Shown here: positions 10,230 to 48,067 of the stretch, piece after piece | Layout of the letters: every line of letters begins with the position of its first letter | Numbering within the stretch: the stretch's first letter is position 1 | Position numbers and translations under genes: made by a program | Notes under the pieces: model-generated | The model's input: only the letters and a program-made list of their open reading frames with translations | What the model was told of the DNA's origin: nothing | Database searches by the model: none | Source: Lactobacillus crispatus | Lineage (GTDB): Bacteria > Bacillota > Bacilli > Lactobacillales > Lactobacillaceae | NCBI RefSeq assembly: GCF_018987235.1 | Contig: NZ_CP072197.1 | Coordinates: forward strand, 496,001 to 560,000 | Reading direction: 5' to 3' | Length of the DNA stretch: 64,000 bases

Positions 10230-10273
10230 TACTTTGCTAATGAATATTAGTAATAAGTAAGGGAGGGAGAATA

Positions 10274-28179: not shown

Positions 28180-30594
28180 TTGTATAACCACAAAGTAATT
28201 GAAAAGAAATGGCAAGATTATTGGGCAAAGCACGATACTTTTAAGACAGGCACTGACCCTGATAAGAAGAATTATTATGCATTGGATATGTTCCCATTCC
28301 CATCTGGCAAGGGACTTCACGTAGGTCACCCAGAAGGATATACTGCAACTGATATCGTTTCAAGAATGAAGCGTGCACAAGGCTATAATGTGCTTCACCC
28401 AATGGGCTGGGATGCATTTGGTTTACCAACTGAACAATATGCGTTAAAGACTGGCGAAGATCCAGAAGTTGTTACTAAGAACAATATTGCTAACTTTAAG
28501 CGTCAATTGAATAAATTGGGTTTCTCATATGATTGGGACCGTGAAGTAACCACCTCAGATCCAAATTACTACAAGTGGACGCAATGGGTTTTTGAACAAA
28601 TGTACAAAAAGGGCTTGGCATATGAAGCTGAAGTTCCTGTTAACTGGTCACCAGATTTAGGTACTGTTGTGGCTAATGAAGAAGTTATTGATGGTAAAAC
28701 CGAGCGCGGTGGCTACCCAGTATATCGTAAGAATATGCGTCAATGGATGCTTAAGATGACCGCATATGCCGATCGCTTGTTGGAAGATCTCGATGACTTA
28801 GATTGGCCAGAACCAGTTAAGGAAATGCAGCGTAACTGGATCGGTCGTTCGGAAGGTGCACAAGTTACTTTTAAGGTAAAGGATAGTGACAAGACTTTTG
28901 ATGTCTTTACCACTCGTCCAGATACTTTGTTTGGTTGTTCTTACACTGTTCTTGCTCCAGAAAGTAAATTAGTGCAAGAAATTACGACCCCTGAACAAAA
29001 AGAAGCAGTTGATGCTTATATTAAGAAGATTGAATCAAAATCTGACCTTGAGAGAACTGATCTTAATAAGGATAAAACTGGTGTCTTCACTGGGGCTTAT
29101 GCAATTAACCCAGTAAATGGTAAAGAAGTTCCAATTTGGATTTCTGACTATGTTTTAGCAAGTTACGGCACTGGTGCCGTAATGGCTGTTCCAGCTCATG
29201 ATGATCGTGATTATGCTTTTGCAACTAAGTTTGGTTTGCCAATTAATCCAGTTATTGAAGGCGGCAATATTGAAAAGGAAGCCTTCACCGGCAATGGCAA
29301 GCACTTTAATTCTGAATTCTTAGATGACTTAGACAACGAAGAAGCCAAGAAGCGCATGATTGAATGGCTTGAGGACCATAACTGCGGTAAGAAGAAGGTC
29401 AACTACAAGTTGCGTGATTGGGACTTCTCTCGTCAACGCTACTGGGGTGAACCAATTCCAGTAATCCACTGGGAAGATGGTACGACTTCACTTGTACCAG
29501 AAGATCAATTGCCACTTCGCTTGCCACATGCAACTGACATTAAGCCATCCGGTACGCCAGAAAGTCCACTTGCTAACTTGACTGACTGGGTAGATGTTGT
29601 TGACGAAAACGGTAGAAAAGGTAAGCGTGAAACCAACACGATGCCTAACTGGGCTGGTTCTAGCTGGTACTACTTGCGTTACGTTGATCCACATAATGAT
29701 AAGGAATTAGCTGACTACGATTTGCTTAAAAAGTGGCTTCCAGTTGACTTGTACATTGGTGGGGCAGAACACGCAGTACGTCACCTACTTTATGCAAGAT
29801 TCTGGCACAAGGTTCTTTATGACTTGGGTGTTGTTCCAACCAAGGAACCATTCCAAAGACTGTACAATCAAGGTCTAATCTTGAAGAACCATGAAAAGAT
29901 GTCTAAGTCAAAGGGTAACGTTGTTAACCCAGATGATGTGATTGACGAATACGGTGCTGACTCACTTAGAATGTACGAAATGTTCATGGGCCCACTTGAT
30001 GCTTCAATCGACTGGGATGACAATGGTCCAGCTTCAACTAAGAAGTTCTTAGATCGTGTATGGCGTTTGTTTGTGAATGATCTTGATCTTAAGGCAATTC
30101 CACAAGAAAGAATCGTTGACGAAAACGATGGTACGCTTGATAAAGTTTATGCTGAGACAGTCAAGAAGGTTACCGAAGACTTCGATGCACTCCACTTTAA
30201 CACTGCAATTAGTCAAATGATGGTCTTCATGAATGCGGCTCAAAAGGCTAAGACTATTCCACGGGAATACGCAGAAGGCTTTGTTAAGCTTTTGGCTCCA
30301 GTTGCACCACATATGATGGAAGAAATTTGGCAAGTCTTTGGTCATGATGAATCAATTACTTATGCTAAGTGGCCAACTTACGATCCAGCTAAGCTAGTTG
30401 AATCAACTGTAGAAATTATGGTTCAAGTTAACGGTAAGCTCCGTGGCAAGTTCCAAGCTCCTAAGGACGCCGATCGCGATGACGTGCAAAAACAAGCTAT
30501 GGAAATTGAACACGTTAAGAAGTTCTTAGAAGGTAAAGACGTCAAGAAGGTTATTGTCGTTCCAAACAAGATCGTTAATATCGTTGCTAAATAA
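28180..30594 (+). CDS. leuS: Leucyl-tRNA synthetase
   Basis: 804 residues, normal length. The class I HIGH motif is in [15 protein letters not shown] near 43-57 and KMSKS is in [16 protein letters not shown] near 577. The editing domain and C-terminal anticodon domain are present. The start is TTG at 28180, 7 bp after AAAGGAG; no ATG fits. It is controlled by the T-box directly upstream. Confidence 0.98.
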
Positions 30595-30687
30595 GTAAAA
30601 TTTTTCCTAAAAGAACAATAGAGCTTTACTTTATTGTTCAAATTGCGTGACAATTAAATAGTTAATTCATATATTGGGAAAAATTTC

Positions 30688-32334
30688 ATGGAAGAAGAAA
30701 ATAACTTAAATAGCAAAGATACACAAAATACTTTTCTAAAAGGTTCCGCTTGGATGACCTTTGGCTCAATTGCCTCGAGAATTTTGGGTGCTTTGTATAT
30801 TATTCCGTGGTATGCCTGGATGGGCTCCTACGGCAATATTGCCAATGCTTTGACTGCGCGTAGTTATAACATTTATACAATTTTTATCTTAATCTCGACA
30901 GCCGGAATTCCAGGAGCAATTGCTAAGCAGGTAGCCAAGTATAATGCACTAAACGAATATGGGATTGGCCGTAAGTTGTTTCGTAAAGGCTTAATTTTAA
31001 TGTCCATCTTGGGGATCGTATCTGCTGCAATTATGTATTTTGCTTCGCCGCTATTAGCATCTAATGGTAGTCAAAGTGATCCGAGGCAGGTTGCGGTTAT
31101 GCGCAGCCTATCTTATGCGATCTTGATTATTCCTATCTTAAGTATTATGCGAGGATACTTCCAAGGATATGCCGATATGATGCCGAGTGCGATGTCACAG
31201 TTTGTTGAACAATTTGCCCGGGTGGTCTGGATGCTCTTAACTGCATTTGTGATTATGCAAATTCAACATGGCTCATATGTGCATGCAGTTATTCAATCCA
31301 ACTTGGCCGCTGCGATTGGGGCGCTATTTGGAATTGGTTTGCTGATATGGTTTCTATTTTCGCGCAGAAATCAATTGAATTATCTAGTTGAACATTCAAA
31401 TAATAGAATCCATGTTTCTACGACTGAATTATTCATGGAAATTATTGAACAGGCTATTCCTTTTATTATTATTGATTCAGGAATTACCTTGTTCTCGTTG
31501 GTTGATCAGTATACGTTCCACCCAATGATTGCAAGCCTAGTTCACGCTAGTTCAGATACAATTGAAGATTGGTATGCCTTGTTTGGCTTGAATGCTAATA
31601 AATTGATTATGATTATTGTCTCTTTGGCAAGTGCGATGGCAGTAACGGCGATTCCGCTATTATCGGCTGCGCATACTAGGGGAGACTATAAGAGCATTTC
31701 AAAGCAGATTGCTAACACGATGGATTTGTTTTTATTTGTAATGATTCCAGCCGCTTTTGGAATGGCCGCCATTAGTAGACCCATTTATACAGTTTTCTAT
31801 GGCCCAGATCTATTGGGGAGCAACGTATTATATCTGTCGTCATTTACCGCGATTAGTTTAGGATTATTTACGGTGTTGATGGCGATTTTGCAAGGTCTTT
31901 CAGAAAATGGGCTGGCTATTAAGTACTTGGTTCTAGGATTGATTTTAAAAGGGATCCTGCAATATCCAATGATTTTCCTATTTAAGGTATATGGTCCACT
32001 AGTTGCTACTAATTTAGGTTTATTAATTATTGTGGCACTTTCTTTAAAACATTTGGAAGTGCAGTATGATTTTAATTTGAATCGAACTAGTAGGAGATTA
32101 GCTGGAGTTACCGCATTTTCAATTGGTATGTTCCTTGTAGTTAAATTGTGTGAAATGGGACTAGGCAAGTTCCTTAATCCTGATCATAGATTTACTGCAT
32201 TGGTGCTAGTAATTGTAGCTGTAGGTGCTGGGATTGTCTTTTATGGCTTGGTGACATTGAAGACAGGGTTAGCACAAAGTGTCTTAGGTAGTAAGGTAGA
32301 AAGTATTTTAGTTAGACTACATATGGATAAATAA
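30688..32334 (+). CDS. Polysaccharide/lipid flippase of the MOP superfamily (SpoVB/MurJ-like)
   Basis: 548 residues, about 14 membrane helices, with the N-terminal SAWMTFGSIASRILGALYIIPW typical of SpoVB-type putative peptidoglycan-precursor or polysaccharide exporters. The stretch ISTAGIPGAIAKQVAKYN is a family hallmark. Substrate unproven. The ribosome-binding site TTGGGA is weak. A stem GAACAATA/TATTGTTC without a T run lies in the 90-bp gap after leuS. Confidence 0.85.
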   Translation: MEEENNLNSKDTQNTFLKGSAWMTFGSIASRILGALYIIPWYAWMGSYGNIANALTARSYNIYTIFILISTAGIPGAIAKQVAKYNALNEYGIGRKLFRKGLILMSILGIVSAAIMYFASPLLASNGSQSDPRQVAVMRSLSYAILIIPILSIMRGYFQGYADMMPSAMSQFVEQFARVVWMLLTAFVIMQIQHGSYVHAVIQSNLAAAIGALFGIGLLIWFLFSRRNQLNYLVEHSNNRIHVSTTELFMEIIEQAIPFIIIDSGITLFSLVDQYTFHPMIASLVHASSDTIEDWYALFGLNANKLIMIIVSLASAMAVTAIPLLSAAHTRGDYKSISKQIANTMDLFLFVMIPAAFGMAAISRPIYTVFYGPDLLGSNVLYLSSFTAISLGLFTVLMAILQGLSENGLAIKYLVLGLILKGILQYPMIFLFKVYGPLVATNLGLLIIVALSLKHLEVQYDFNLNRTSRRLAGVTAFSIGMFLVVKLCEMGLGKFLNPDHRFTALVLVIVAVGAGIVFYGLVTLKTGLAQSVLGSKVESILVRLHMDK

Positions 32335-32378
32335 AAGAAAATCAAACTGTTGTGATGGCAGTTTGATTTTCTTTTTTA
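32335..32378 (+). terminator. Terminator after the flippase gene
   Basis: Stem AGAAAATCAAACTG/CAGTTTGATTTTCT followed by TTTTT. Confidence 0.92.
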
Positions 32379-32625
32379 TTTAATTATAAAAAATTACTTA
32401 TTTGATCTATGATAAAGGTGTCAAAAGAAAAGTAAGTTCTCTATTTAAATAACACAGCAATAATCAAGGACTAAGTGTATTAACGGAAATGATTTTTTGT
32501 GTTAATATAATTGATGTAGAAATAAATTGCAGATGTTATTTGAGTGATATCGAGATACGCCGCCGCAAAAAGTGTGTGTCATAGATTAATGCTTAATAAG
32601 GATGTAAATTAGGAGGATTTTGAAT
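32379..32625 (+). promoter_or_regulatory. Upstream region of the interrupted adhesin gene
   Basis: About 245 bp without a gene. TATAAT at 32506-32511 is the best -10, with no strong -35. AGGAGG at 32611-32616 is an ideal ribosome-binding site for ATG 32626, the original adhesin start. Nothing else recognised. Confidence 0.55.
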
Positions 32626-32657
32626 ATGGTATCTAAGAATAACCGTATTAAGAAAAT
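32626..32657 (+). pseudogene. Detached 5' end of the giant adhesin gene
   Basis: ATG 32626, 9 bp after AGGAGG, begins MVSKNNRIKK. Joining it across the IS30-family element (32658-33821) and one 13-bp repeat gives MVSKNNRIKKMEKAAERK in one frame with the large gene that follows, including its YSIRK-type signal. This is therefore the native start, now separated by 1.2 kb. Confidence 0.88.
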
Positions 32658-33821
32658 CCTGAATTGTCAAATTAAGTGCAACAGTTAGGCTATGAGGAAA
32701 TATATTGCTTGAAGAGTTCTTCTGCTGTGTGATATTGAAGGATTCGACGATGTTTGCGGTTAATGGCATCAGTTGCCTGTTGAACATAAGCAGCTGACTT
32801 ATCTTTCATGCTTTTGCCTTTAGGGAAGAATTGACGCAGAAGTCCATTGCAGTTCTCATTGGTGCCTCTTTCCCATGGAGAATATGGGTGGGCGAAGTAG
32901 ATCTGGCAGCCTTTGATCTTGGTCATATCCGCAAACTCAGAGCCATTGTCAAACGTGATCGATTTAAACCAGGCAGGATGTCTGTCAATCTCATTTTGAA
33001 GCAGCCTTTGGCATGTGCTTGCCCGATAGTCAGGAATCTTGATAACTACTTCAAAGCGTGTGGTTCTTTCGGTCAAAGTCATTAAAGCAGGCTGATTCTT
33101 GCGTCTGACGCCTTTAACCAGATCTCCTTCCCAGTGCAGCGGCGTTTTTCTGTCTTCAATCTCTTTAGGACGCTGTTCAATGGAATTGCCAAGATTCTTC
33201 TTGTGCAAAGCATGACCGCTCTGGCCGTGATGACGCTTGTTCCTGCGTCTTTTGAGCTTCATAGGCAGATCAATATTGCTTATGTCCAGCAAGCCCTGAT
33301 CAATATAGCGATAGACAGTTGGTGTGCTGGGACAAGGGTAGCCTGGCATAGTCCTTTTGAATTCACCAACGAATTCATCGATGCTGGTGGCATCAAATTT
33401 AGCTTTGAAGCGTCTGGAGAGCATTCTCAAAAAGACAGCATAATGCTTCAATGGATTGCGCTGATAGCAGTTTTTGCGACGCTTCTCATAATAAAGCTGT
33501 GCAGTATCAGCGTAATAGTGCTCATACAATAAATAGCTGCTGTCTCTTTGCAGGACGCTTCCGCGTTTGATTTCGCGACTGATTGTCGACTTATGGCAGC
33601 CGACTTCTTGAGCGATAACAGTACGGGAAGTTATGCCGGAATCCAGCATTGCTTGAATTTGTCCACGTTGTACGCTGGTTAATTGATGATAGTGCTTAGA
33701 AATGCTAGAATTTGAATTGGTCATGAAGATCTTCCTTTCTTGATTTTTCGTCACTTCAAGTTTAGGTCTTCATGGCCTTTTTGTTTAACACTTGGTGTTG
33801 CACTTCAATTTTAAATCCGGG
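32658..33821 (-). mobile_element. IS30-family element, 1164 bp, inside the adhesin signal region
   Basis: The ends CCTGAATTGTC...AAGTGCAAC and (reverse complement) CCCGGATTT...AAGTGCAAC align as imperfect 25-bp inverted repeats. It is flanked by 13-bp direct repeats GTATTAAGAAAAT (32645-32657 and 33822-33834). The transposase points away from the adhesin. The repeat is longer than the 2-4 bp commonly quoted for IS30, so its length is worth checking. Confidence 0.9.
32690..33724 (-). CDS. IS30-family transposase
   Basis: 344 residues from ATG 33724 (MTNSNSS), preceded by AAAGGAAG; an upstream in-frame ATG at 33754 lacks a site. The N-terminal HTH domain includes TVIAQEVGCHKSTISREIKRG. The DDE catalytic core follows, with HWEGDLV, ITFDNGSEF and PWERGTNENCNGLLR. 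Appears intact. Confidence 0.95.
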   Translation of the reverse strand: MTNSNSSISKHYHQLTSVQRGQIQAMLDSGITSRTVIAQEVGCHKSTISREIKRGSVLQRDSSYLLYEHYYADTAQLYYEKRRKNCYQRNPLKHYAVFLRMLSRRFKAKFDATSIDEFVGEFKRTMPGYPCPSTPTVYRYIDQGLLDISNIDLPMKLKRRRNKRHHGQSGHALHKKNLGNSIEQRPKEIEDRKTPLHWEGDLVKGVRRKNQPALMTLTERTTRFEVVIKIPDYRASTCQRLLQNEIDRHPAWFKSITFDNGSEFADMTKIKGCQIYFAHPYSPWERGTNENCNGLLRQFFPKGKSMKDKSAAYVQQATDAINRKHRRILQYHTAEELFKQYISS

Positions 33822-33832
33822 GTATTAAGAAA

Positions 33833-36800
33833 ATGGAAAAGGCTGCCGAGAGAAAGCCACACTTCGCTATTAGAAAGCTTACTATCGGCGCTGCTTCTGT
33901 TTTGTTAGGTACTACTCTTTGGATGAGTACTACGGCTTCAACATCACACGCGGATACAAATGATGATGCTAATAGTCCTGAATCTCATGAAAAGAGTAAT
34001 ACTACAGCAGATAATGGCACAGGGGATGCCAATAAGACTGTTGTAATTACTAATAATGACGCTGCTAAGGCTGCCGCAGATGCAACTACTGACAACGTTA
34101 CTATCAATAACAATGAATCAACTGAAACTAAGGCTGCTCAAGATAAGAACAGCTCTAATTCTGTGTCTGAAAAGAAGTCTACAGAAACTAAGTCATCAGT
34201 TGATACTTCAAGCTTGGAAAAGAGCAATGTTTCAGCTTCAACTGTAACAACTGACAAGTCAACTCAAGCTTCAGCTGCAAATAAGGCAAGTAACAATGTA
34301 GCTACAACAACTAACAAGGTTGCAAATGCTTCAACAACTACTAATAAGTCAGCTTCAACTACAGTAAACAATACTGAAAAGGCTGCAGCAAAGTTAGCTG
34401 AAGATGCTAATGTAAATACTGGAAACATTACTAAGTCAACTGTTTCAAAGGACACTACTATTACCGATGCAGGTAAGGTTGGTAAGCAAGATCAAAATAA
34501 TGTAGATACTCAAACTTTCAACTTGAACACTGCTGAACTTGGCAAGTTGACTAAGAGTAGTGATAGTCACTTTAATCCTAAACTGGCTGCTGCTTTGTTT
34601 GGTAATAGTCTTATTCAAGCTAATGCTAATAATGCTGTTAATGCAAATACTAGTGCTTTAAATAGTAGTGCTTTGACTAATGGGGATGCCAGTGCATTAG
34701 GTGCTAGTCTTAGAGCTGCTAGCGGCAATAATGATACTTCAAATTACCAAACTGTAACTAACTGGTCAGGCTTAAAGGGCGCCGTAAATAGTAGTGCTTC
34801 TGGTGTTATTATTTCCGGTACAATTAATGTTCCACAATTTACAACTGTAAATCAAAATAATGACTTAAATATTAATAAAGATTTCACTATTATTGGTGCT
34901 GATGAAAATGCAACACTTAATCTTAATAATAATGTAATTAATAACAATGGCAATCTTACTTTAAAGAATATTAATATTAAGGGTGCTGTTGCTGGTAATG
35001 GTACTGTTAATATTGAAGGCAAAGTTACCTCAACTGTTGGTTCAGATAATTCAATCATTAAAGGTAAAACTATTGATGAAGCTAATGCAGCTGTACAAGA
35101 CCAAACAAGCACTGGCAAGATTGGAACGCAAGGTACAAGTTGGGTAGCTGGAAGTAATAATCGAAATGGTTGGACCGTAAAAGGTTGGAATTACGCTAAC
35201 TTTAGTGGCTCAAATGTTAATATAGCTGCTGATGCTAACTTAACTATTAGTCGTTCAGCAATCGGTGATGGTATTCATTTAACAAATAATGGTACAGTTA
35301 ATGTTGCTGACAATGGCCAGTTGACTATTAATATGAATACTAACAACGATTTGAATACTACTGCTCGTTATCACAATGCAGGTATTTTTGCTGTAGGTAA
35401 CGGTAACTTTACTACAGGTTATAAATCTGTTGTTACATTGAATACCAGTATCGGTCAAGGTATTTCGATGACTGGTATGAGACCTTATGTGACTGATGAT
35501 GATCGTTTTGGTGGCTATGGTGCTCGTGATCGTAGTGATGGCTCTGGTCAAATTAATTTAGGGCAATATTCAACTTTGAATTTCACTGGTCGTGATGGTG
35601 TTATTTTAGGTAATAACTCTCATTTTAACGTTGGTGATAGTGCAAATGTTCACTTTGAAAACAAGGGCCGTGGTGTTGCTCTTGATCTAGCTGCTAATAG
35701 TGACATTAATATTGGTGACCATGCAGTAACTTATTTCCATTCTGTAGGAAAGAATAATATCGACGCGCTTGGTAGAAATGCAGGTGTTGCTTCAGGTAGT
35801 TATGATGGTTACAACTATATTGGTGTAAACGAAGGCGGTAACATCACTGTTGGTCAGTTTGCAACCTTTAGAGTTATACTTGAAGGTCGTGGCGATAACG
35901 CTTGGGATGATGTTGTTTCGTTAGACTCACGAGATGTTAATACTAATGCTGCTTTTACTTCTAAAACCGGTGCAACTATTGACATTCGTGATGATAACAC
36001 TAACTTCTATGCAGAATTGATTTCATTTCCATTAGGCGCATCTCAATCAAGAATTGATATTCATGACCCATTGTTGCTTAACTTACAACGTTATTCTAGT
36101 GGTGGTGCAACTACTGGTTGGATGGCAACTGGTGGTGACAAGATTAATACTACCTCATCACAATACACTTCTAACCTAATTTATATGTCAGGAGCTAATG
36201 GTGAATTTAGTGTTGATGGAACAAATTATGTAGTTTACCAACGTATTAAGTCTGATGGTTCTAAGCAAATTTGGTTAAACGTTAATGGCGTTAATATTCC
36301 AATGAATGGTTTCCAAACTAAGAATATTTGGGATAATAAGGCCAACCCTGATGTATCAATTAATGGTAATGGTTTAACTGGTGGTGTTAGAGCTAACCAA
36401 GTTCACAACTATTATGGTTCTCCGTTAATTGGTAAGGATGCTCCGTACTATGGTATTTCTACGCAACGTGCTAGTCACCAAATTTGGTTCCCACACCAGA
36501 CCACAATGGAAGTAACTGGTACTCATACTAATACTATTAAGTATGTATATTCAGATGGTACTCCAGTTACAGATGCTAATGGTAATCCAATTGTTAAAAC
36601 TCAGGATATTACATTAACCCGTAAACTTACTCTTGATATTAGCCAAGATAAGATTGAAGATATTCAAAATTACGCTTTATCACATACCTCTGATGAAACT
36701 CTTGAATATATTAAGAATGCTCAAGCTGTCACTGCAGATTCAGGTTGGACTTATACTGATGCGCAGGGTAACAAGATAACTAGTCCATATGCTGAGGTAG

Positions 36801-39800
36801 TTTCTCCAACCGTAAAGGGATACACCGCTACAATTCAATCATCTAATGTCCCAGGAATTAAGAAAGGCGCCGATGGTTCTTCAGTAACTGCTAAGTTGCA
36901 ATTTAAGGAAGATCTTGTTCAAAACGGTGAGATATCTAGTGATTATAAGGCACAAGGTATTAGTGCGATTATTCCAGATAATTATGAAACTGTAGTTGTT
37001 TACAGTGTTCCTCAAGATGTAAAAGATACTCTTAAGTTCTATGATGATGCAACTAAGTCATACATTACTGATGCTCCTGACCAAACTGCAATTGGTAAGG
37101 AAAATGATACTGTTAACTTTAAAGATGGAGCAAGTACTGTAAAATCATTAGAAGACAAAGGATACAAGTTTGTAAATGTAACTGACGGTACTCCTGATGA
37201 TACTAAGGCAACTATTTTAACTGGTAATTCATTTGATAAAGTAGACTTTGGTAAATTTGGTAAGAGTGGTAAGACGTTTGTTGTTCACTTAACTCACAAG
37301 GTAATCCCAGTAACTCCAGATACTCCAAACATTCCATCTAATAGTAAGATTACTAAGGATGATCTTACTAAGACAGCTACTCGTACTATTCACTATGTTG
37401 AAAACGGTCAAAATGGTGCTGCTTTAAAGGATCCAACTGTACAAACTGTAACTTACTCAGGTACTGCATACATCGATGAAGTTACTGGTCAAATGGTTAA
37501 TGCCAAGGCAGATGGAAAAGATTCTCAAGGTAATACTACTTATGTAGTAGACCCTGACAACAAGACTACACCATCAATCACTTGGACTACTTCTAACAAT
37601 GGCAAGTTTGCTCAAGTAACTCCAGATGCAACTATTAATAAAGATGGTCAAAACTGGAACACAACTGTTAAGTCAGTTAATGAAGAAAATGCACCAGAAG
37701 TCTCAAAAATCACTGGTAAGACAACTAACGAAGATGTCTACGTACCATACACTTTGCAACAAAAGACTTATACTGGTGTAGACGAAAACAAGACAGTTAC
37801 TCGTACAATTAAATACCTTGATAATGAAACCAAAGAAGAAATTAAGGGTCTTGATCCTGTAACTCAAACTACAAACCTTCACCGTACACAAATTAAGGAT
37901 GAAAAGGGTAATGTAGTTGGTTACGGTACTATCAGTGCAGATGGTCACAGTTATACTATTAACAATAACTGGATTATTGATAACAATGGTTGGTCAGCAC
38001 AAGTTTCACCTGATGCAACTGGCTTAGGTTACAAGAAGACACCTCACTTTGATAATGGTCAAGATGCTTCAACTGTTCCAGCTGGTACTGTAAGCGTAAC
38101 TGATCCACAAGATAAAACAGTTAAAGTTTACTACGATCATGATTATGAACCTGTAAACCCAGATCATCCTGAGTACACTAAGGACGTTAACGAAACTGTT
38201 CACTATGTATATAGCGATGGTACAAAAGCTGCTGATGACAATGTTCAAACTTCTAAGTGGAGCAGAACTCTTACAGTTGATAAGGTGACAGGTCAGCTTG
38301 TTCCAAATGGTCAATACACTACTGAGTGGGCAATTGCTAAGGGTCAACCAAGTGAATACTCACAAGTAAACTCTCCAGTTATTAAGGGTTACTACGCAAA
38401 TCAAGCGAATGTTCCTGCAACTAAAGTAACTCAAGATGACATTGAAAAGACTGTTACCTACAAGCCACTTGGCCACATTATTCCAGTTGACCCAACTACT
38501 GGTGACCCAATTCCAAACGCACCACAACCACAATTTCCTAACAATCCAACTGATCCAACTAAGGGTAATCCAGGTGAAAAACCAACTGTTCCAGGTTACC
38601 ACCCACAAGATGGCAAGCCAGGCGAACCAGTTAGCCCAGTTCCAGGCAACCCAGGCGAAGATGTTAAGGTTCCTTACGTTAAGGACCAAGGTACTGTTTC
38701 AGTTATCTTCCACGATGACACTACTAACAGCACTATTCCAAACGTTGGTTTCAACTCTGGTGATGCAGCAGCTGATACTCCTGTAACTTACAATCCTGAA
38801 AAGAACATTTCTGATCTTGAAAAACAAGGTTACGTATATGTACGTACTGAAGGTACTCTTCCTGGCAAGGTTGAAGCTAACAAGAACATTACAGTTACTG
38901 TTCACATGAAGCACGGTGTACAACCAGTAACACCAACTACACCACCAACTGATGTACCAAAGAACACACCAAAGGAAGCTCAACCAGATCAATTGACGAA
39001 GAAGGTTAACTTAACTGTTAACTATGTCAATGCTGATGGCACTACATTTAATGGTAATGTTCCAGCTAACGCTAAGCAAACTGCTACATTTACTGGTACT
39101 GCTTATGTAGATAAGATTACTGGTCAATTAGTAAACGCTAAGCAAGAAGATGGCAAGTGGGTAATTAATACTGATGACACTGCAACTCCAGAAATTACTT
39201 GGACTAGCGACAAGACTTCATTTGAAGGAGTAACTTCACCAGCTGAAAAGGGTTACCACGTATCTAATGTTTCATCACATGCTGATGGTGACAACGTTGC
39301 TGCAATCACTGGCTTAACTAAGGATAGTCAAGACATTACAGTTACTGTAACTTACGCTAAGAACGGTACTAAGATTGTAGGTGAACGGACTGTTGAAGGT
39401 TCAATGACTGTTCACTATACAGGTGCCGGGGACTTAACTCCAAAAGATAATGTTCAAAGTGGTGTAAACTTCCACTACACTGGTGATGTACATGACGCCG
39501 AAACTAATGAATTAGTTTCTAAAGGTCACTGGGAAGTAAATGGCGTTACTGGCGACAGCTACCAATTTAACGAAGTAGATTCACCAGCAGTTTCAGGTTA
39601 TACTGCGGAAGTTAAGGTTGTACCAGGCTTTAAGGCTACTCCAGATAAACCAACATTTGAAACTACTGTAAACTACACTAAGAACGGTACTGAAATTCAA
39701 AATAAGAAGAATGTCCCAGCTTCTCAAACTGTTCAATATGTAGATGATCAAGGAAACGTCTTACGCCCTGAAGTAAAGCAAAATTCCGAATTCCAATACA

Positions 39801-42800
39801 GTGGTGATACTGTTGACAAGGTAACTGGTGAAACTATTAAGCCAGGTTCATGGAACGAAACCACTCATAACTTCACTGCTGAAAATGTTCCTGTAATTAA
39901 AGGTTATGTAGCGGTTTCTGGCTACACTAACAACAATGGTAAATACACTGCCGGTGGCTTTACTGCTACTAATACTGGTTCTAAAGAAGATAATAACAAG
40001 GTCTTCAAGGTTGTTTACAAGAAGGTCGGTAACCTTGTTCCTCAGGATCCAAATGGCAACCCAATTCCAGATCCAAAGAACCCAGGTCAAAATGTACCAA
40101 ATGTTCCTTACACTAATGATCCAACAGATCCAACTAAGGTAACACCAAACGAAAAGACTCCAGATATTCCAGGTTGGCACACTGATACTCCAAACGTAAC
40201 TCCAACAGATCCAACTAAGGACACTCCAGTTGTTTACACTAAGAATGTTGAAAACCAAAATGTAACTGTTAAGTACTTTGACGATACAAAAGAAACTGAT
40301 TTAAGTTCATATGACAAGTCAATTTCTGCTAAGCCAGGCGAAGCACTTAACTACAGTACTCAACCTTCAATTACTGAACTTGAAAACAAGGGTTACAAGC
40401 TTGTAAGTGATAACTTCAATGTAACAACTATGCCTGAAAAGGGTGGAAATTACGAAGTTCACTTTGTTCACAAGACTACTACTATTACTCCAGGTAAGCC
40501 AGGTAAGCCAGGTGAGCCAATTAACCCTAACGATCCTAATGGTCCTAAGTGGCCAACAGGTACCGATGCTAAGGCTTTGACTAAGCAAGGTAATCAAACT
40601 GTTCACTATGTATATGCTGACGGTACTAAGGCAGCAGATGATAATGTACAAAATACTACATTTGCTCACACTTTAGTGTTTGATAACGTAACTGGTAAGC
40701 AAATTGAAGACAAGGGCTGGACTCCTGAAAGTCATACGTTCAAGGATGTAACTTCACCAGAAATTGATGGTTACCACGCTGATAAGAAGACGGTTGCCGG
40801 TGCTACTGTAACTGTTAATGATCCAACTAGTGAAACTACTGTAATTTACGCTAAGAACGATACAGAAATTAGAAATCATCAGGAAGTTACAGCTTCACAA
40901 CTTGTTAAATATGTTGATGAAGACGGTAACGAATTAAGAGCTTCTAAGAATCAAAACTTCACCTTTACTTACACAGGTGATACTTATGATAAAGAAACTG
41001 GTAAGCAAATTGCTACTGGTAAGTGGAACCAAACAAGTACTGACTTTACTAGTGAGAACGTCCCTGTAATTGATGGTTACGTTGCTGTTAAGGGTTATAC
41101 TCGTGATGACAATGACAAAGTTGTTGCAGGTGGATTCACTACTTCTTACGATGCAAGTGATGCAAAACGCAATAGAACATTTACTGTTGTTTACAAGAAG
41201 GTAGGAAAGATTGTTCCGGTTGATCCATCTAAGAACCCAATTCCAGATGCACCAACTCCAAGTTACGAGAACGATCCAACTGATCCAACTAAGGTAACTC
41301 CAGATGAACCAACTCCAAATGTTCCAGGTTACACTCCAAGTCAAAACACTGTAACTCCTCCAGATCCAACTAAGGATACTCCAGTTGTTTACACTAAGAA
41401 CGTTGAACAAAAGGCTAAGGTTCAATATATTGACTTAGACGATAACAACAAGGTAATGTCTGAATCTCCTGTATTAACTGGTCAAGCAGGCGATAAGATT
41501 GATTACTCAACTACTAATGAAATTGCTAACTACGAAAAGCAAGGTTACGTTCTTGCAGATGATGGTTTCAGCAATAACCCAGTATTTGATAACGTTGAAG
41601 GTAATGAACAAATCTTTAAAGTAACCTTCCACCATGGTCAAATCCCAGTAAATCCAGATCATCCACACGACGGTGTAGATCCAAGCAAATACACTAAGGA
41701 TGTTAAGGAAACTGTTCACTATGTAGATACTGAAGGTAATAAGGTACACGATGATAATGTTCAAACTTCTAAGTGGACTAGAACATTAACTGTTGATGCA
41801 GTAACTGGTAAGACTATCGACAATGGTCAATACACTACTGATTGGTCAATTGCTAAGGGTGAAAAGACTGTTTACGATCAAGTAAACACTCCAGTTGTTG
41901 ACGGTTACCACGCAGATAAGAGAGAAGTTCCAGCAACTGCTGTAACTCAAGACAATATTGATGTCACAGTAATTTATGCTAAGAACGGTAAGATTATTCC
42001 AACCGATCCAAGTGGCAAGCCAATTCCAAACGTACCAACACCAACGTACCCAACTGATCCAACTGATCCAACCAAGGTAACTCCAGATGAGCCAGTACCT
42101 GATATCCCAGGATTGATTCCAAGCAAGCCAACAGTAACTCCAACTGATCCAGGCAAGGATACTCCAGTTCCATATAACCCAGTAATCCCAGCTAAGGATC
42201 AAGCAGCAGTTGTCAACTACATCGATTCAGATGAAGGCAATAAGGTAATTACCACTTCAGGCAACTTAAGTGGTAAGGCAGGATCAACGATTGACTACTC
42301 AACTAAGTCAACTATTGCTGATCTTGAAAATAAGGGTTACGTACTTGTAAATGATGGATTCCCAGCAGGTGCTAAGTTTGATAATGATGACAACACCACT
42401 CAAATCTTCACTGTTGTTTTGAAGCATGGTACAGTGCCAGTAACTCCAGACAAGCCAGGTAAGCCAGGTGAACCAATCAATCCAAATGATCCAGACGGTC
42501 CTAAGTGGCCAGAAGGCACTGATGAAAACAGTGTTAAGAAGACAGGTACTCAAACTATCCACTATGTAGGTGCAGGCGAGAACACTCCAAAGGATGATGT
42601 TCAAACATTCGACTTTACCAAGAAGATGGTAGTTGACAAAGTAACTGGCAAGATCATTGATTCAGGTGAATGGAATGTAACTAGTCACACATTTGGCTAC
42701 AAGGATACTCCAGTTATTGATGGTTACCACGCAGACAAGCGTAACGCTGGTGGTTCAGTAGTAACTCCAGATGACTTGAACAAGACAGTAACGGTAACTT

Positions 42801-44278
42801 ACACTCAAAACGGTAAGATTATCCCAACTGATCCAAGTGGCAAGCCAATTCCAAACGTACCAAATCCAACTTACCCAACTGATCCAACTGATCCAACCAA
42901 GGTAACTCCAGACGAGCCAGTTCCAGATATTCCAGGAATGATTCCAAGTAAGCCAACAGTAACACCAACTGATCCGGGCAAGGATACTCCAGTTCCTTAC
43001 ACACCTGTAACTCCAGTTGTTAATACTGTAACTGGTAAGATCACTTACATCGATGATGATGCTACTGGTAACAAGATTCTTGATGTGGATAACTTCAGTG
43101 GTAAGGTAGGAGACAAGATCGACTACACTACAGCTGGTGAAATCCAAAGTTACGTAAACAAGGGCTATGTACTTGTATCTAATAACTTCAAGGATGGCGA
43201 TGAAACCTTTGCTAAGGATGGCAATGTCTTTGAAGTTCACTTCAAGCACGGAACTACAACAGTAACTCCAGAGAAGCCAGGTAAGCCAGGTGAACCAATT
43301 GACCCATCTAACCCAGAAGGACCTAAGTATCCAGCTGGTACTGATGAACACGCAGTTAAGAGAACGGGTACTCAAACAGTTCACTTCACTGGTGCAGGTG
43401 ACAAGACTCCAGCTGATAAGAAGCAAAGCTTCGACTTCACTAGAAAGATCACCTTCGACAATGTAACTGGTAAGATCATCACTACTACTCCATGGAATGA
43501 AGCAAGCCACACATTTGGCTACGAAAACGTTCCTGTAGTTGATGGATTCCACACTACTGTTAAGACTGCTGGTGGTACAACGGTAACTCCTGATGACTTG
43601 GACAAGACAGTAACTGTAAACTACAGCCAAAACGGTAAGATTATCCCAGTTGATCCAAGTGGAAAGCCAATTCCAAATGCACCAACACCAACTTACCCAA
43701 CTGATCCAACTGATCCAACTAAGGTAGTTCCAAATGAACCAGTACCAAATATTCCTGGTATGGTACCAAGTAAAAACACTGTAACTCCAAGTGATCCGGG
43801 CAAGGATACACCTGTGATTTACAACAACGGAAATACTCCGGTAAATCCAGATACTCCAACGACTCCAACCAACCCAACTACACCTACAACACCAACGACT
43901 CCAGATGAGCCAACTAATGTAACTCCACATGCAGAGACGCCAGAGACTCCATCTGAGCCAGAAAAGCCAAGTGATGACACCAACACTGTGAAGCCACATG
44001 CAGGTGTAGTACCAACTTCAAAAAAGAAGTCTACAACTACTACCAAGACAGTAACTCCACATGCACAAAGAGAAGTAAGAATTACCAAGAACGGTAATAT
44101 CATCAACTCTAAGGGTCACACCATTGGTTATGTAGATGACAAGGGTCAAGTACACAAGACACTTCCACAAACTGGTGACAGCGCAGAATTAGCAGAGGCA
44201 GAAGCAATTCTAGGTGGAATTGCAGCAGGCTTAGGCTTGATCGGCTTAGCTGGAAGCAAGAAGCGTCGTCGTAATTAA
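33833..44278 (+). CDS. Giant LPXTG mucus-binding adhesin (Mub-like), start displaced by IS30
   Basis: 3481 codons. Residues 8-40 are the YSIRK-type signal (HFAIRKLTIGAASVLLG). A Ser/Thr/Asn/Ala-rich stretch runs to about 300, then a pectate-lyase-like beta-helix adhesion domain at about 303-890. From about 898 to 3330 there are about 12 MucBP/Mub-B2 units (pattern VHYV-x-DG...VTGK...GYHADK) alternating with about 6 MucBP_2-type units (V-x-Y-x-DD...Y-x-LENKGYVLV). Pro-rich linkers such as PTDPTDPTKVTPDEP separate them. A Pro/Thr stalk, LPQTG (3444-3448), a hydrophobic helix and a KKRRRN tail form the sortase anchor. The native start is at 32626. After the IS30 insertion the first Met is residue 11 of the original, with only CCGGGG as a possible ribosome-binding site 11 bp upstream. 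It may be silenced or read from an IS-derived promoter. Confidence 0.93.
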   Translation: MEKAAERKPHFAIRKLTIGAASVLLGTTLWMSTTASTSHADTNDDANSPESHEKSNTTADNGTGDANKTVVITNNDAAKAAADATTDNVTINNNESTETKAAQDKNSSNSVSEKKSTETKSSVDTSSLEKSNVSASTVTTDKSTQASAANKASNNVATTTNKVANASTTTNKSASTTVNNTEKAAAKLAEDANVNTGNITKSTVSKDTTITDAGKVGKQDQNNVDTQTFNLNTAELGKLTKSSDSHFNPKLAAALFGNSLIQANANNAVNANTSALNSSALTNGDASALGASLRAASGNNDTSNYQTVTNWSGLKGAVNSSASGVIISGTINVPQFTTVNQNNDLNINKDFTIIGADENATLNLNNNVINNNGNLTLKNINIKGAVAGNGTVNIEGKVTSTVGSDNSIIKGKTIDEANAAVQDQTSTGKIGTQGTSWVAGSNNRNGWTVKGWNYANFSGSNVNIAADANLTISRSAIGDGIHLTNNGTVNVADNGQLTINMNTNNDLNTTARYHNAGIFAVGNGNFTTGYKSVVTLNTSIGQGISMTGMRPYVTDDDRFGGYGARDRSDGSGQINLGQYSTLNFTGRDGVILGNNSHFNVGDSANVHFENKGRGVALDLAANSDINIGDHAVTYFHSVGKNNIDALGRNAGVASGSYDGYNYIGVNEGGNITVGQFATFRVILEGRGDNAWDDVVSLDSRDVNTNAAFTSKTGATIDIRDDNTNFYAELISFPLGASQSRIDIHDPLLLNLQRYSSGGATTGWMATGGDKINTTSSQYTSNLIYMSGANGEFSVDGTNYVVYQRIKSDGSKQIWLNVNGVNIPMNGFQTKNIWDNKANPDVSINGNGLTGGVRANQVHNYYGSPLIGKDAPYYGISTQRASHQIWFPHQTTMEVTGTHTNTIKYVYSDGTPVTDANGNPIVKTQDITLTRKLTLDISQDKIEDIQNYALSHTSDETLEYIKNAQAVTADSGWTYTDAQGNKITSPYAEVVSPTVKGYTATIQSSNVPGIKKGADGSSVTAKLQFKEDLVQNGEISSDYKAQGISAIIPDNYETVVVYSVPQDVKDTLKFYDDATKSYITDAPDQTAIGKENDTVNFKDGASTVKSLEDKGYKFVNVTDGTPDDTKATILTGNSFDKVDFGKFGKSGKTFVVHLTHKVIPVTPDTPNIPSNSKITKDDLTKTATRTIHYVENGQNGAALKDPTVQTVTYSGTAYIDEVTGQMVNAKADGKDSQGNTTYVVDPDNKTTPSITWTTSNNGKFAQVTPDATINKDGQNWNTTVKSVNEENAPEVSKITGKTTNEDVYVPYTLQQKTYTGVDENKTVTRTIKYLDNETKEEIKGLDPVTQTTNLHRTQIKDEKGNVVGYGTISADGHSYTINNNWIIDNNGWSAQVSPDATGLGYKKTPHFDNGQDASTVPAGTVSVTDPQDKTVKVYYDHDYEPVNPDHPEYTKDVNETVHYVYSDGTKAADDNVQTSKWSRTLTVDKVTGQLVPNGQYTTEWAIAKGQPSEYSQVNSPVIKGYYANQANVPATKVTQDDIEKTVTYKPLGHIIPVDPTTGDPIPNAPQPQFPNNPTDPTKGNPGEKPTVPGYHPQDGKPGEPVSPVPGNPGEDVKVPYVKDQGTVSVIFHDDTTNSTIPNVGFNSGDAAADTPVTYNPEKNISDLEKQGYVYVRTEGTLPGKVEANKNITVTVHMKHGVQPVTPTTPPTDVPKNTPKEAQPDQLTKKVNLTVNYVNADGTTFNGNVPANAKQTATFTGTAYVDKITGQLVNAKQEDGKWVINTDDTATPEITWTSDKTSFEGVTSPAEKGYHVSNVSSHADGDNVAAITGLTKDSQDITVTVTYAKNGTKIVGERTVEGSMTVHYTGAGDLTPKDNVQSGVNFHYTGDVHDAETNELVSKGHWEVNGVTGDSYQFNEVDSPAVSGYTAEVKVVPGFKATPDKPTFETTVNYTKNGTEIQNKKNVPASQTVQYVDDQGNVLRPEVKQNSEFQYSGDTVDKVTGETIKPGSWNETTHNFTAENVPVIKGYVAVSGYTNNNGKYTAGGFTATNTGSKEDNNKVFKVVYKKVGNLVPQDPNGNPIPDPKNPGQNVPNVPYTNDPTDPTKVTPNEKTPDIPGWHTDTPNVTPTDPTKDTPVVYTKNVENQNVTVKYFDDTKETDLSSYDKSISAKPGEALNYSTQPSITELENKGYKLVSDNFNVTTMPEKGGNYEVHFVHKTTTITPGKPGKPGEPINPNDPNGPKWPTGTDAKALTKQGNQTVHYVYADGTKAADDNVQNTTFAHTLVFDNVTGKQIEDKGWTPESHTFKDVTSPEIDGYHADKKTVAGATVTVNDPTSETTVIYAKNDTEIRNHQEVTASQLVKYVDEDGNELRASKNQNFTFTYTGDTYDKETGKQIATGKWNQTSTDFTSENVPVIDGYVAVKGYTRDDNDKVVAGGFTTSYDASDAKRNRTFTVVYKKVGKIVPVDPSKNPIPDAPTPSYENDPTDPTKVTPDEPTPNVPGYTPSQNTVTPPDPTKDTPVVYTKNVEQKAKVQYIDLDDNNKVMSESPVLTGQAGDKIDYSTTNEIANYEKQGYVLADDGFSNNPVFDNVEGNEQIFKVTFHHGQIPVNPDHPHDGVDPSKYTKDVKETVHYVDTEGNKVHDDNVQTSKWTRTLTVDAVTGKTIDNGQYTTDWSIAKGEKTVYDQVNTPVVDGYHADKREVPATAVTQDNIDVTVIYAKNGKIIPTDPSGKPIPNVPTPTYPTDPTDPTKVTPDEPVPDIPGLIPSKPTVTPTDPGKDTPVPYNPVIPAKDQAAVVNYIDSDEGNKVITTSGNLSGKAGSTIDYSTKSTIADLENKGYVLVNDGFPAGAKFDNDDNTTQIFTVVLKHGTVPVTPDKPGKPGEPINPNDPDGPKWPEGTDENSVKKTGTQTIHYVGAGENTPKDDVQTFDFTKKMVVDKVTGKIIDSGEWNVTSHTFGYKDTPVIDGYHADKRNAGGSVVTPDDLNKTVTVTYTQNGKIIPTDPSGKPIPNVPNPTYPTDPTDPTKVTPDEPVPDIPGMIPSKPTVTPTDPGKDTPVPYTPVTPVVNTVTGKITYIDDDATGNKILDVDNFSGKVGDKIDYTTAGEIQSYVNKGYVLVSNNFKDGDETFAKDGNVFEVHFKHGTTTVTPEKPGKPGEPIDPSNPEGPKYPAGTDEHAVKRTGTQTVHFTGAGDKTPADKKQSFDFTRKITFDNVTGKIITTTPWNEASHTFGYENVPVVDGFHTTVKTAGGTTVTPDDLDKTVTVNYSQNGKIIPVDPSGKPIPNAPTPTYPTDPTDPTKVVPNEPVPNIPGMVPSKNTVTPSDPGKDTPVIYNNGNTPVNPDTPTTPTNPTTPTTPTTPDEPTNVTPHAETPETPSEPEKPSDDTNTVKPHAGVVPTSKKKSTTTTKTVTPHAQREVRITKNGNIINSKGHTIGYVDDKGQVHKTLPQTGDSAELAEAEAILGGIAAGLGLIGLAGSKKRRRN

Positions 44279-44927: not shown

Positions 44928-46299
44928 GAAACTGTCAAATCTTTTGTGTAAATAGATCTTTCTCGTAAATTGATTTTTTAATTATTTATTTAATCAAAGT
45001 AGGATTCTAAGGTGTCCTGAACCTGACCAAAGCCTTTATGAATTCGATTGAAATAACGGTCATTGTAGCTCATTGCCTGGATGCCAATAAATGCATCAAG
45101 CGACTGTTCAGTTGGAAATTCTGCCTTAGGCTTAGCTTTACGCTTGATGACGTTGTTAAAGGATTCAATCATATTGGTTGAATAAATTGAAGCTCTGATT
45201 TGTTTGGGATAATTGTAGAAGACTAGCAGATCGGGCTCAATTTCCTTCAAACCTTTGATGACATGGCTATAAGCTTTATTCCATTTGGCATAGAATTTGT
45301 GCAAGACAGCTGCAGCTTCTTTTTTGCTTGTCTGTTGATGTATCTGCTTGAATTCGTTCATGATCTTTTCACGATCGTCGACGCGTACTTTAGCGCAGAT
45401 ATTGCGCATGACATGAACCAGGCAGCGTTGAAAATGAGCTTTAGGATAAGTCCTGGCCAAGGCTGTTTTCATGCCAACAACACCATCAGAAAGAAAAAGC
45501 TCAACTTGCTTCAAGCCTCTGGACTTCATGTTTTGAAGCATCTCTGTCCAAACTTCAATGTTCTCACTAGGAGCAATGCAGTAGTCAATGACTTCCTTAT
45601 GTCCATTAGGTTTAATGCCAATGGCAATATATACTGCTTCACGCTCAAACGTTTCTCGGCGCAAAGGAAGGTATGTCGCATCCAAATAGACACAGAAAAA
45701 CTTGTCGCTTAGCTTGCGCTTGTGATAAGCCTCAATCTTGGGGAGCATCTGCTTGGAAATATTTGATACTTGAGCTGGACTATAATGACTGCCATACATT
45801 TTCTCAATCAAGTCAGCGATTTCTCTGGTAGTTACGCCTTTGGAGTATAGCTTGATAATCGTGCTTTCCAAAACATCAGAGTGCTGCTTGTAGTCAGGCA
45901 GCGTGTGCTGATGAAACTGACCGTTGCGGTCTCGAGGCACTTGCACTTCAATTGGTCCAAACTGGGTATCAACCTTGCGGAAATAAGCACCATTTCTAGA
46001 ATTGCCAGTATTCCAGCCATTTCTGGCATAGGGATCATAGCCTAGAAAGGCAGTCAACTCAGCTTCTAGCAAGTTATTAACAGCCTGTTGTAGCTCTTTG
46101 CGCAATAAATCATTTATTTTGTCTGGATTGAATAGAGCTTGAGCAAAATCTTTGGTAAAATCATTCATGAAGGAGTTCTTCTTTCTGTATGTGTTTTTTT
46201 GTTCAAACCAATCATACGAGAAAGGAACTCCTTTTTCTAATGTTTAAAGAAATAAATTTAAGGAATCATTCATCCTTACACAAACTATTTTACAGTCTC
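44928..46299 (-). mobile_element. IS256-family element, copy 1 (1372 bp)
   Basis: The ends GAAACTGTCAAATCTTTTGTGTAA (left) and, inverted, GAGACTGTAAAATAGTTTGTGTAA (right) are the terminal repeats. Perfect 8-bp target duplications TAGCTTAT lie at 44920-44927 and 46300-46307. It landed 68 bp upstream of the mucus-binding-repeat gene that follows, so it may have separated that gene from its promoter. Confidence 0.95.
44990..46168 (-). CDS. IS256-family transposase, copy 1
   Basis: 392 residues, mutator-type transposase with catalytic Asp in CVYLDATYLPLR, Asp in FLSDGVVGMK and Glu in TNMIESFNNVIKR. The protein is the same as those of the copies at 51378 and 61263, indicating recent transposition. 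GGAG before the ATG is the ribosome-binding site. Confidence 0.97.
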   Translation of the reverse strand: MNDFTKDFAQALFNPDKINDLLRKELQQAVNNLLEAELTAFLGYDPYARNGWNTGNSRNGAYFRKVDTQFGPIEVQVPRDRNGQFHQHTLPDYKQHSDVLESTIIKLYSKGVTTREIADLIEKMYGSHYSPAQVSNISKQMLPKIEAYHKRKLSDKFFCVYLDATYLPLRRETFEREAVYIAIGIKPNGHKEVIDYCIAPSENIEVWTEMLQNMKSRGLKQVELFLSDGVVGMKTALARTYPKAHFQRCLVHVMRNICAKVRVDDREKIMNEFKQIHQQTSKKEAAAVLHKFYAKWNKAYSHVIKGLKEIEPDLLVFYNYPKQIRASIYSTNMIESFNNVIKRKAKPKAEFPTEQSLDAFIGIQAMSYNDRYFNRIHKGFGQVQDTLESYFD

Positions 46300-46366
46300 T
46301 AGCTTATTGTAGATCTTTATTTTGTTTTCTAAATAAGGGTAGTAGATATAGATGGAAAGGCCTAAA

Positions 46367-48067
46367 ATGAATAAATTCACATCAATTTTTGGCAAAAATA
46401 TCAAGGCTGTCGTTAAGTATGTTGATTTAGACAACGATGGTGAAGTTTTAGAAAGTACTAAAAAATTTGAGGGAAAACCAAAAACACAGGTGGAATATGA
46501 TCCCTCTGATGAAATTGCAAAGTATCTAAATCAAGGTTATGTTTTGGAAAGAGATGGCTTTGATGAGAATCCTATTTTTGAAGAAGATGTGGATGAATAC
46601 GTTATTTCATTTAAGCATAAGCATTTAGTTAAAGAATATGAACAAAAGAAGATTAAGCAATTGGTACACTATCAAGGTGCAGCAAGCAGAACACCGGAAG
46701 ATAGTACTACTGAGATCGAGTTTGTTCATAATCAAGAAATAGACGCTGTTGATAATCATGTGATTAAGGACTTAGGTTGGAAGCCTAAAGAGCAGAGCTT
46801 TATGATCATTGGCACGCCCACATTGCCTGGATTTGTTCCGGATTTGATTGAAGCAGGTGGTGAGACCGTTACTGCTGAAGATAAGGATAAGGAATACACG
46901 GTTAACTTCACAGTTAATAATAAGCCATCTACTAGTGAACAAAGTGCAGTTGTTAAGTTTGTTGACTTAAGTGATCAAAATAAAGTTATTTTCCAAAAGA
47001 ATTTAACTGGTCAGCCTAATATGCAGATTGAATATGACCCAGAAGCTGAAATTAAGCGGCTAGAAGATGAAGGCTATTCATTAGTTAAGAACGGCTTCAA
47101 TGACAATGGAGATATTCAATTTTATGGTAATGCAGATGGTTACCAACCAGTGTTCATTATTACCATGAAATACAGTGCAGTTGCTGTAGATGCCAAGCAT
47201 CCTAATGACGCTGTTGATCCAGATATTTACAGTAAAGAAAGTAAATTAACAGTTAAGTTTGTTGGTGTAGATGATGCGCCAAAAGACAAGGTTCAAACGA
47301 TTCATTGGAACAGAACAGTTACTTTATTGCCAAGTACTAAAAAGGTAATTGAATCAGGACGCTATGATAGTGACTGGAAAGCTGATAAGCAATACCAAGA
47401 TGTAAAGGTACCTCAAATTGAAGACTATCATGCAGATATGGAGGTCGTAAAGGCACCTGAATTAAGCCAGGATGATCAAGTTATTACTGTATCATATGCT
47501 AAGAATGAAGCTGTTAAAGAAGCCAAAGCTGAGCCTGTTCATGAAAATGAAAGCTACACCGATGATGATAGTATTACCGATCAACCAGTCGCTAAACAAA
47601 CTGAAATAACCAAAGTTGTCAGCGACCTTGAACAAAATTCAACTGTTAAAGAACAAGTGGCAATTATTAATTTCATTGATGTTGATAATGATGGTAATTC
47701 AATTACTTCATCTGGAATTTTAAATGGTAAACCAGGTGAAAGCATTAATGATTTATACAGTACTGAAAATCCTCTTAAGATCATTGCAAGAGCAGGTTAT
47801 CATGTTGTATTTAATAATTTTGATAAGAAGGGTACTGTTCAAAGATTCAATGATAATGCATTGATGCCACAAGTCTTTACAATTGGGGTAAGCAAAAAAG
47901 CAAAGGGTACTGATGTTTTAGATAAAGATGCAACTAAGAAAGAAATCGAAAAGATTAAGAATGATTTAGCTGTATCTAAAGAAGCTAACCCAGATTATTC
48001 TAAGACAATGATGGACTTAACCAACGTCGTTTCATCATTATATGATTTGGTTTCAAAATCTGAATAA
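46367..48067 (+). CDS. Mucus-binding-repeat protein without signal peptide or anchor
   Basis: 566 residues from ATG 46367 (AAAGG 7 bp upstream; ATG 46352 overlaps that site). It contains MucBP_2-like units at about 8-85 (AVVKYVDLDNDGEV), 190-265 (AVVKFVDLSDQNKV) and 428-505 (VAIINFIDVDNDGNS). Mub-B2-like units lie at about 88-180 and 285-390. The last 55 residues are Lys/Glu-rich and probably helical. The repeats resemble those of the giant adhesin upstream, but I see no hydrophobic N-terminus, LPXTG motif or TM segment. It may be a cytoplasmic relic of an adhesin that lost its ends, or a non-classically exported protein. Its promoter region is interrupted by IS256 copy 1. Confidence 0.8.
   Translation: MNKFTSIFGKNIKAVVKYVDLDNDGEVLESTKKFEGKPKTQVEYDPSDEIAKYLNQGYVLERDGFDENPIFEEDVDEYVISFKHKHLVKEYEQKKIKQLVHYQGAASRTPEDSTTEIEFVHNQEIDAVDNHVIKDLGWKPKEQSFMIIGTPTLPGFVPDLIEAGGETVTAEDKDKEYTVNFTVNNKPSTSEQSAVVKFVDLSDQNKVIFQKNLTGQPNMQIEYDPEAEIKRLEDEGYSLVKNGFNDNGDIQFYGNADGYQPVFIITMKYSAVAVDAKHPNDAVDPDIYSKESKLTVKFVGVDDAPKDKVQTIHWNRTVTLLPSTKKVIESGRYDSDWKADKQYQDVKVPQIEDYHADMEVVKAPELSQDDQVITVSYAKNEAVKEAKAEPVHENESYTDDDSITDQPVAKQTEITKVVSDLEQNSTVKEQVAIINFIDVDNDGNSITSSGILNGKPGESINDLYSTENPLKIIARAGYHVVFNNFDKKGTVQRFNDNALMPQVFTIGVSKKAKGTDVLDKDATKKEIEKIKNDLAVSKEANPDYSKTMMDLTNVVSSLYDLVSKSE

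Follow-up and report, generated by a model that had tools for sequence, protein, structure and literature searches.

An IS30-type insertion sequence with 13-bp target duplications separates a large adhesin gene of Lactobacillus crispatus from its native start

According to the accessible part of one report, the IS30 element of Escherichia coli makes 2-bp target duplications (PMC9333248), and the IS30-type element IS1630 of Mycoplasma fermentans is described, in the available text of another, with duplications of 16, 23, 25 and 26 bp (PMC3317919). An iso-IS30 element is reported in excerpts of one study to have supplied a promoter for the spaCBA pilus genes of L. rhamnosus GG (PMC3744422), a second study gives a different promoter in its accessible text (PMC5536039), and excerpts of a third describe IS30-family transposase as more abundant in Lactobacillus crispatus from dysbiotic microbiota (PMC6441167). 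Here, an IS30-type insertion sequence (IS) is described that lies between codons 1-10 and the rest of a 3481-codon adhesin gene of L. crispatus, within a stretch of 64,000 nucleotides (the window; positions 496001-560000 of one 2,239,089-base contig) whose numbering is used below unless stated otherwise. The features of the site are the following.

32611..32616, plus strand: Shine-Dalgarno sequence AGGAGG of the adhesin gene, read from the sequence; pairing -10.2 kcal/mol
32626..32657, plus strand: native adhesin start, codons 1-10 (MVSKNNRIKK) plus two bases, with the left target repeat as its final 13 bp; relatives have a similar peptide fused to the YSIRK region
32645..32657, plus strand: left 13-bp target duplication GTATTAAGAAAAT, a direct repeat
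32658..33821, minus strand: IS30-type insertion sequence of 1164 bp with ends CCTGAATT...TAAATCCGGG, imperfect terminal inverted repeats and identical copies
32690..33754, minus strand: IS30-family transposase of 354 aa (NCBIfam NF033563; HTH_38 and rve)
33822..33834, plus strand: right 13-bp target duplication GTATTAAGAAAAT, a direct repeat ending within the native codon-11 ATG
33833..44278, plus strand: remainder of the adhesin from Met-11, with a YSIRK signal, 11 Muc_B2, 6 MucBP_2 and LPQTG, from profile matches and motif

The arrangement is explained, with good probability, by an ordinary insertion of an active IS30-type element with a 13-bp target duplication, the adhesin being likely silent or strongly reduced as a result. 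A probably very active element has transposed, apparently recently, into an A+T-rich stretch spanning codons 7-11 of the adhesin gene, by a copy-out-paste-in route if published work on IS30 applies here, and 13 bp of the target were duplicated in the process. The upstream region, Shine-Dalgarno sequence and start codon now lie 1.2 kb away, behind the oppositely running transposase gene. What is left of the long frame begins at the native Met-11, where the ribosome site is weaker and the junction offers no good promoter.

The assignment of the element rests on its transposase and its ends. The transposase matched the NCBIfam IS30 equivalog NF033563 with an E-value of 3e-72 (243.5 bits, cut-off 80), and contained HTH_38 (8.7e-11) and rve (1.2e-7, slightly below the Pfam cut-off at 32.3 vs 32.6 bits) domains, with the presumed acidic residues of the core, D211, D269 and E300, picked by motif. 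The terminal inverted repeats are imperfect, with 18 of 25 terminal bases identical. On the transposase model, the helix-turn-helix and DDE core and the inverted repeats, the element belongs to the IS30 family, and the claim of the initial annotation that such an element splits a genuine adhesin gene at its start is upheld.

A search of the whole genome with the element as query gave at least 38 matches among the best 40 of 56 candidates scored, and 34 near-complete copies were examined, a match of 43 bp and a broken copy in three pieces having been set aside. Thirty of these, the adhesin copy included, are letter-identical over 1164 bp; the remaining four comprise two single-base variants, one with five differences, and one with a length of 1153 bp. 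Such identity between copies suggests that the element has multiplied recently and is probably very active. Exact repeats were present at the same borders in most copies (13 bp in 27, 14 bp in three and none in four), and the 30 repeats have an A+T content of 87.5%, as compared with 64% in the flanks. Because each of these 30 repeat-bearing copies is bordered by an exact repeat of its own, 13 or 14 bp in length, the 13-bp repeats at the adhesin are target duplications and not chance matches, as had been proposed; the alternative that the repeats are part of the IS ends is ruled out by the same observation. Two identical IS copies lack target repeats and, by eye, their flanks do not pair with each other; these copies have perhaps arisen from rearrangement between copies.

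The 2-bp duplication of E. coli IS30 was not found for this element, and, because long duplications are reported for IS1630, a length of 2 bp was not treated as a requirement of the whole IS30 family. The long target duplications are therefore unusual for an IS30-type element but precedented. The targeting of inverted repeats, as in IS1630, was not apparent: the flanks had 172 of 450 complementary positions, with 299 of 5000 permutations as high, and the target repeats themselves had 76 of 183, with 442 of 5000 shuffles as high, neither being significant. A literature search returned no paper on 13-bp duplications by IS30 elements of Lactobacillus, nor on an IS30-associated adhesin of L. crispatus; PMC12016507 deals with an IS5-family element and has no bearing here. 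In plasmids of other Lactobacillus strains, for which eight IS copies were sampled (one per record, from eight of 19 matched records), three copies had repeats of 12, 13 and 14 bp and five had no repeat longer than 4 bp. The closest plasmid copies found were from L. crispatus, at 99.8% and 99.6% identity, the latter being on NZ_ON569382.1 (pLc83), where the annotated gene of a YSIRK protein extends into the IS end and no repeat longer than 4 bp is present at the IS borders. With the 13-bp duplication rule, recent insertions of the element could be mapped precisely in other strains.

The gene interrupted by the element has both a recognizable start and a long intact remainder. The codons for MVSKNNRIKK occupy 32626-32655, beginning with the ATG at 32626 and preceded by a strong Shine-Dalgarno sequence, and frame bookkeeping places this 5' piece in register with the large frame, which encodes 3481 aa and is open throughout 33833-44278. 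The YSIRK signal lies at residues 6-29 of the Met-11 frame (PF04650 6e-9, above the Pfam cut-off; TIGR01168 3.6e-7), followed by 11 stretches of Muc_B2 and six of MucBP_2, with the LPQTG motif at residue 3444. By its profile and motif content the large frame is recognized as a YSIRK LPXTG mucin-binding adhesin, with mucin binding predicted from the domain names. Adhesins that bind mucin may contribute to the way in which a Lactobacillus strain colonises the host.

The start region was examined in relatives using a start-region pattern, with free spacing and an ATG required at the Met-11 place, in 75 Lactobacillus genomes, and a wider pattern in 397 genomes of the family. The window was also compared with a contig taken as Lactobacillus gallinarum DSM 10532, in which positions 1-2519 of the homologous stretch are matched by window 29824-32339 (82%) and, after approximately 7.7 kb of other DNA, positions 10253-10314 are matched by 32593-32657 (86%) and positions 10302-10501 by 33822-34021 (72%). 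The two flanks thus fall on one continuous stretch that lacks the element, and their matches share exactly the 13 bp of the repeat, and therefore the insertion is the derived state and the uninterrupted allele, whose occurrence in related strains had been put forward as a check, is present in a relative. The L. gallinarum homologue is itself decayed, with no ATG at the start position and with stops in the following homologous stretch. Other searches for relatives gave little, as a protein scan of genome contigs with the adhesin gave 74 stretches with no relative confirmed, a pattern scan of genome contigs gave 17 stretches of which one was from Lactobacillus, and the N-terminal region of the adhesin had no match in plasmids by DNA or by protein.

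The start-region pattern was found at 12 places in seven of the 75 Lactobacillus genomes, with the first ATG in frame with Met-11 in 10 of the 12, and the wider pattern gave 10 hits, five of them already in the genus set; four of the other five were in frame, and the out-of-frame hit was not a YSIRK protein. These counts bear on the reading, highly improbable on present evidence, that translation naturally begins at codon 11 and that the 10 codons before it have nothing to do with the gene. The TIGR01168 match begins at residue 1 of the Met-11 frame, as that reading would predict; against it, the leader is in frame with the YSIRK region in those 10 genus hits, and the 5' region and leader match L. 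gallinarum at the 86% given above, adjoining the rest. Thus the leader of 10 residues, which in relatives is continuous with the YSIRK region, belongs to the adhesin, as initially annotated, and the concern that it might be unrelated there was not borne out. A corresponding ATG is present at the codon-11 place in the L. gallinarum homologue, which rules out its creation by the insertion, and, of the 11 best-scoring other loci, eight have Met at this place, one has Val (GTG) and two have a different residue. The ATG at 33833 is thus an ordinary native codon 11 and not a product of the insertion; its position 11 bp from the IS edge had been correctly noted, while its description as rebuilt at the junction does not hold.

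The effect of the insertion on expression was considered from ribosome sites, promoters and terminators. Pairing with what is presumably the 16S tail was -10.2 kcal/mol at the native start and -6.6 kcal/mol at the junction, values equalled or bettered by 3% and 16%, respectively, of the 2306 ATGs of the window, which served as background. At the junction, a hybrid promoter had been proposed from TTGCAC in the IS end and TATTAA in the target. TTGCAC (33798-33803) matches the consensus at 3/6 positions and TATTAA (33823-33828) at 4/6, a total of 7/12, with a 19-bp spacer outside the 16-18 bp expected of a -35 in the IS end and a -10 in the target, and TTGCAC is present in both IS ends. When all 34 copies were scored for a -10 lying 16-18 bp from TTGCAC, the best one in each matched 2-5 of 6 positions (mean 3.2; the adhesin copy 3), consensus TTGACA in the other IS end is directed away from the adhesin, and a promoter scan found no site at the IS/adhesin junction. 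The proposed hybrid promoter is accordingly not supported. Terminator-like sites in 32300-33900 numbered three, compared with 1.2 expected, including one in the right IS end at 33764-33778; the 106-nt stretch that was folded does no better than its shuffles (z +1.27), and the indication of a terminator there is weak.

Several observations weigh against silencing of the adhesin, and correspond to an alternative in which it is still made at a low or moderate level, through an IS promoter or upstream read-through and translation from the native Met-11. The 3481-codon frame has remained open with the YSIRK signal peptide kept from Met-11 and scoring above the Pfam cut-off, and the junction ribosome site is not negligible, being stronger than 4 of the 19 long-frame starts in the window. 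Two plus-strand promoter-like sites of 9/12 within the IS are directed at the adhesin, at 33415-33444 and at 33683-33711 (the latter with TG before the second hexamer), and a further 9/12 match, TTAACA-N19-TTTAAA, is present at 33785-33815; however, two plus-strand sites are fewer than the mean of 4.3 in shuffled sequence, and a transcript starting approximately 7 bp past TATTAA would begin near 33835, at the ATG or past it. The upstream region likewise yielded no clear native promoter (none in the scan; the best box 9/12 with a poor first hexamer), so that little weight attaches to the lack of a consensus at the junction. Two of the 12 genus homologues have their first ATG out of frame, with start regions at 29374-29407 and 17872-17905 of their own contigs that are one base shorter than in the other 10, and with Met-11 frames still open over 1053 and 4257 codons. 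These relatives could indicate that Met-11 is a usable start or that the A-rich tract is variable, or they could be broken genes or sequence errors. The promoter reported in the available text for the iso-IS30 element at spaCBA (PMC3744422) provides a precedent, tempered by the different promoter of the second, likewise partial, source (PMC5536039). Given also the loss of the native ribosome site, this alternative is considered rather unlikely. Silence or a strong reduction of the adhesin is the most likely outcome, because of the weaker ribosome site at Met-11 and the lack of a good junction promoter, with some expression possible from the weak promoter-like sites of the IS.

A reversible on/off switch through precise loss of the IS, as initially suggested, has very little probability. 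The perfect 13-bp repeats and intact downstream frame would in principle allow rare loss by slippage, as might be the case for any insertion with such repeats; against this, the accessible text on E. coli IS30 describes it as copy-out-paste-in and states that precise excision regenerating the site does not occur (PMC9333248). The genome sequence examined is a single consensus.

The insertion with target duplication at the adhesin is one of many in this genome. By our own count, ten of the 30 repeat-bearing copies lie within frames of 80 codons or more, which they interrupt, and an ATG of a long frame is found beside the right IS end also at a sortase-domain gene and a dprA gene, which would not be surprising with A-rich targets. 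The IS at genome contig 1530976-1532137 lies directly before the sortase-domain gene with the ATG within the target repeat, and a second sortase is encoded by an open frame at genome contig 925383-925739. The IS at genome contig 1168747-1169908 lies approximately four codons into dprA (PF02481), where the target repeat includes the ATG and a G-rich, ribosome-site-like stretch has been left on the other side of the IS. A broader and improbable extension, taken jointly, is that the element is bursting through the genome and repeatedly entering A-rich gene starts (adhesin, sortase, dprA) in such a way that an ATG stays next to the right IS end, that Met-11 serves as a fallback start in this class of adhesin so that insertions turn genes down and not off, and that relatives use the short A-rich tract preceding Met-11 as a contingency site. 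Downstream of the adhesin, a 571-aa MucBP_2/Muc_B2 protein (46352-48067) neighbours a Mutator-type transposase, has no signal peptide or LPXTG evident by eye, and seems to be part of another, broken adhesin. Four frames of 392 aa are present at 44990-46168, 51378-52556, 59035-60213 and 61263-62441; the two that were scanned are Mutator-family transposases, and the region is probably rich in this second IS type besides the IS30-type element.

The severing of a 3481-codon adhesin gene from its start signals by an element with 30 identical copies provides a concrete case of likely strain-level loss, with both likenesses to and differences from the described systems. The element shares with E. coli IS30 an IS30 transposase match, the HTH_38 and rve core, a single gene and inverted repeats, but has duplications of 12-14 bp where the partial source for E. 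coli IS30 gives 2 bp. The likeness to IS1630, as far as its accessible description extends, is in the long duplications and IS30 type, whereas the length here is nearly constant at 13-14 bp. Phase variation of ica by IS256 in Staphylococcus epidermidis, for which reversal has reportedly been demonstrated by experiment, likewise involves an IS in a surface-adhesion locus with reversibility proposed; however, the IS families differ and no sign of reversal is seen here. Similarly to the iso-IS30 element at spaCBA, the element here is an IS30-type sequence directly upstream of a lactobacillar adhesin frame, but that element is reported to have constituted a promoter (PMC3744422; PMC5536039, in which another promoter is cited as well), whereas the present element has entered the start of the coding sequence itself and the indications of a promoter are weak.
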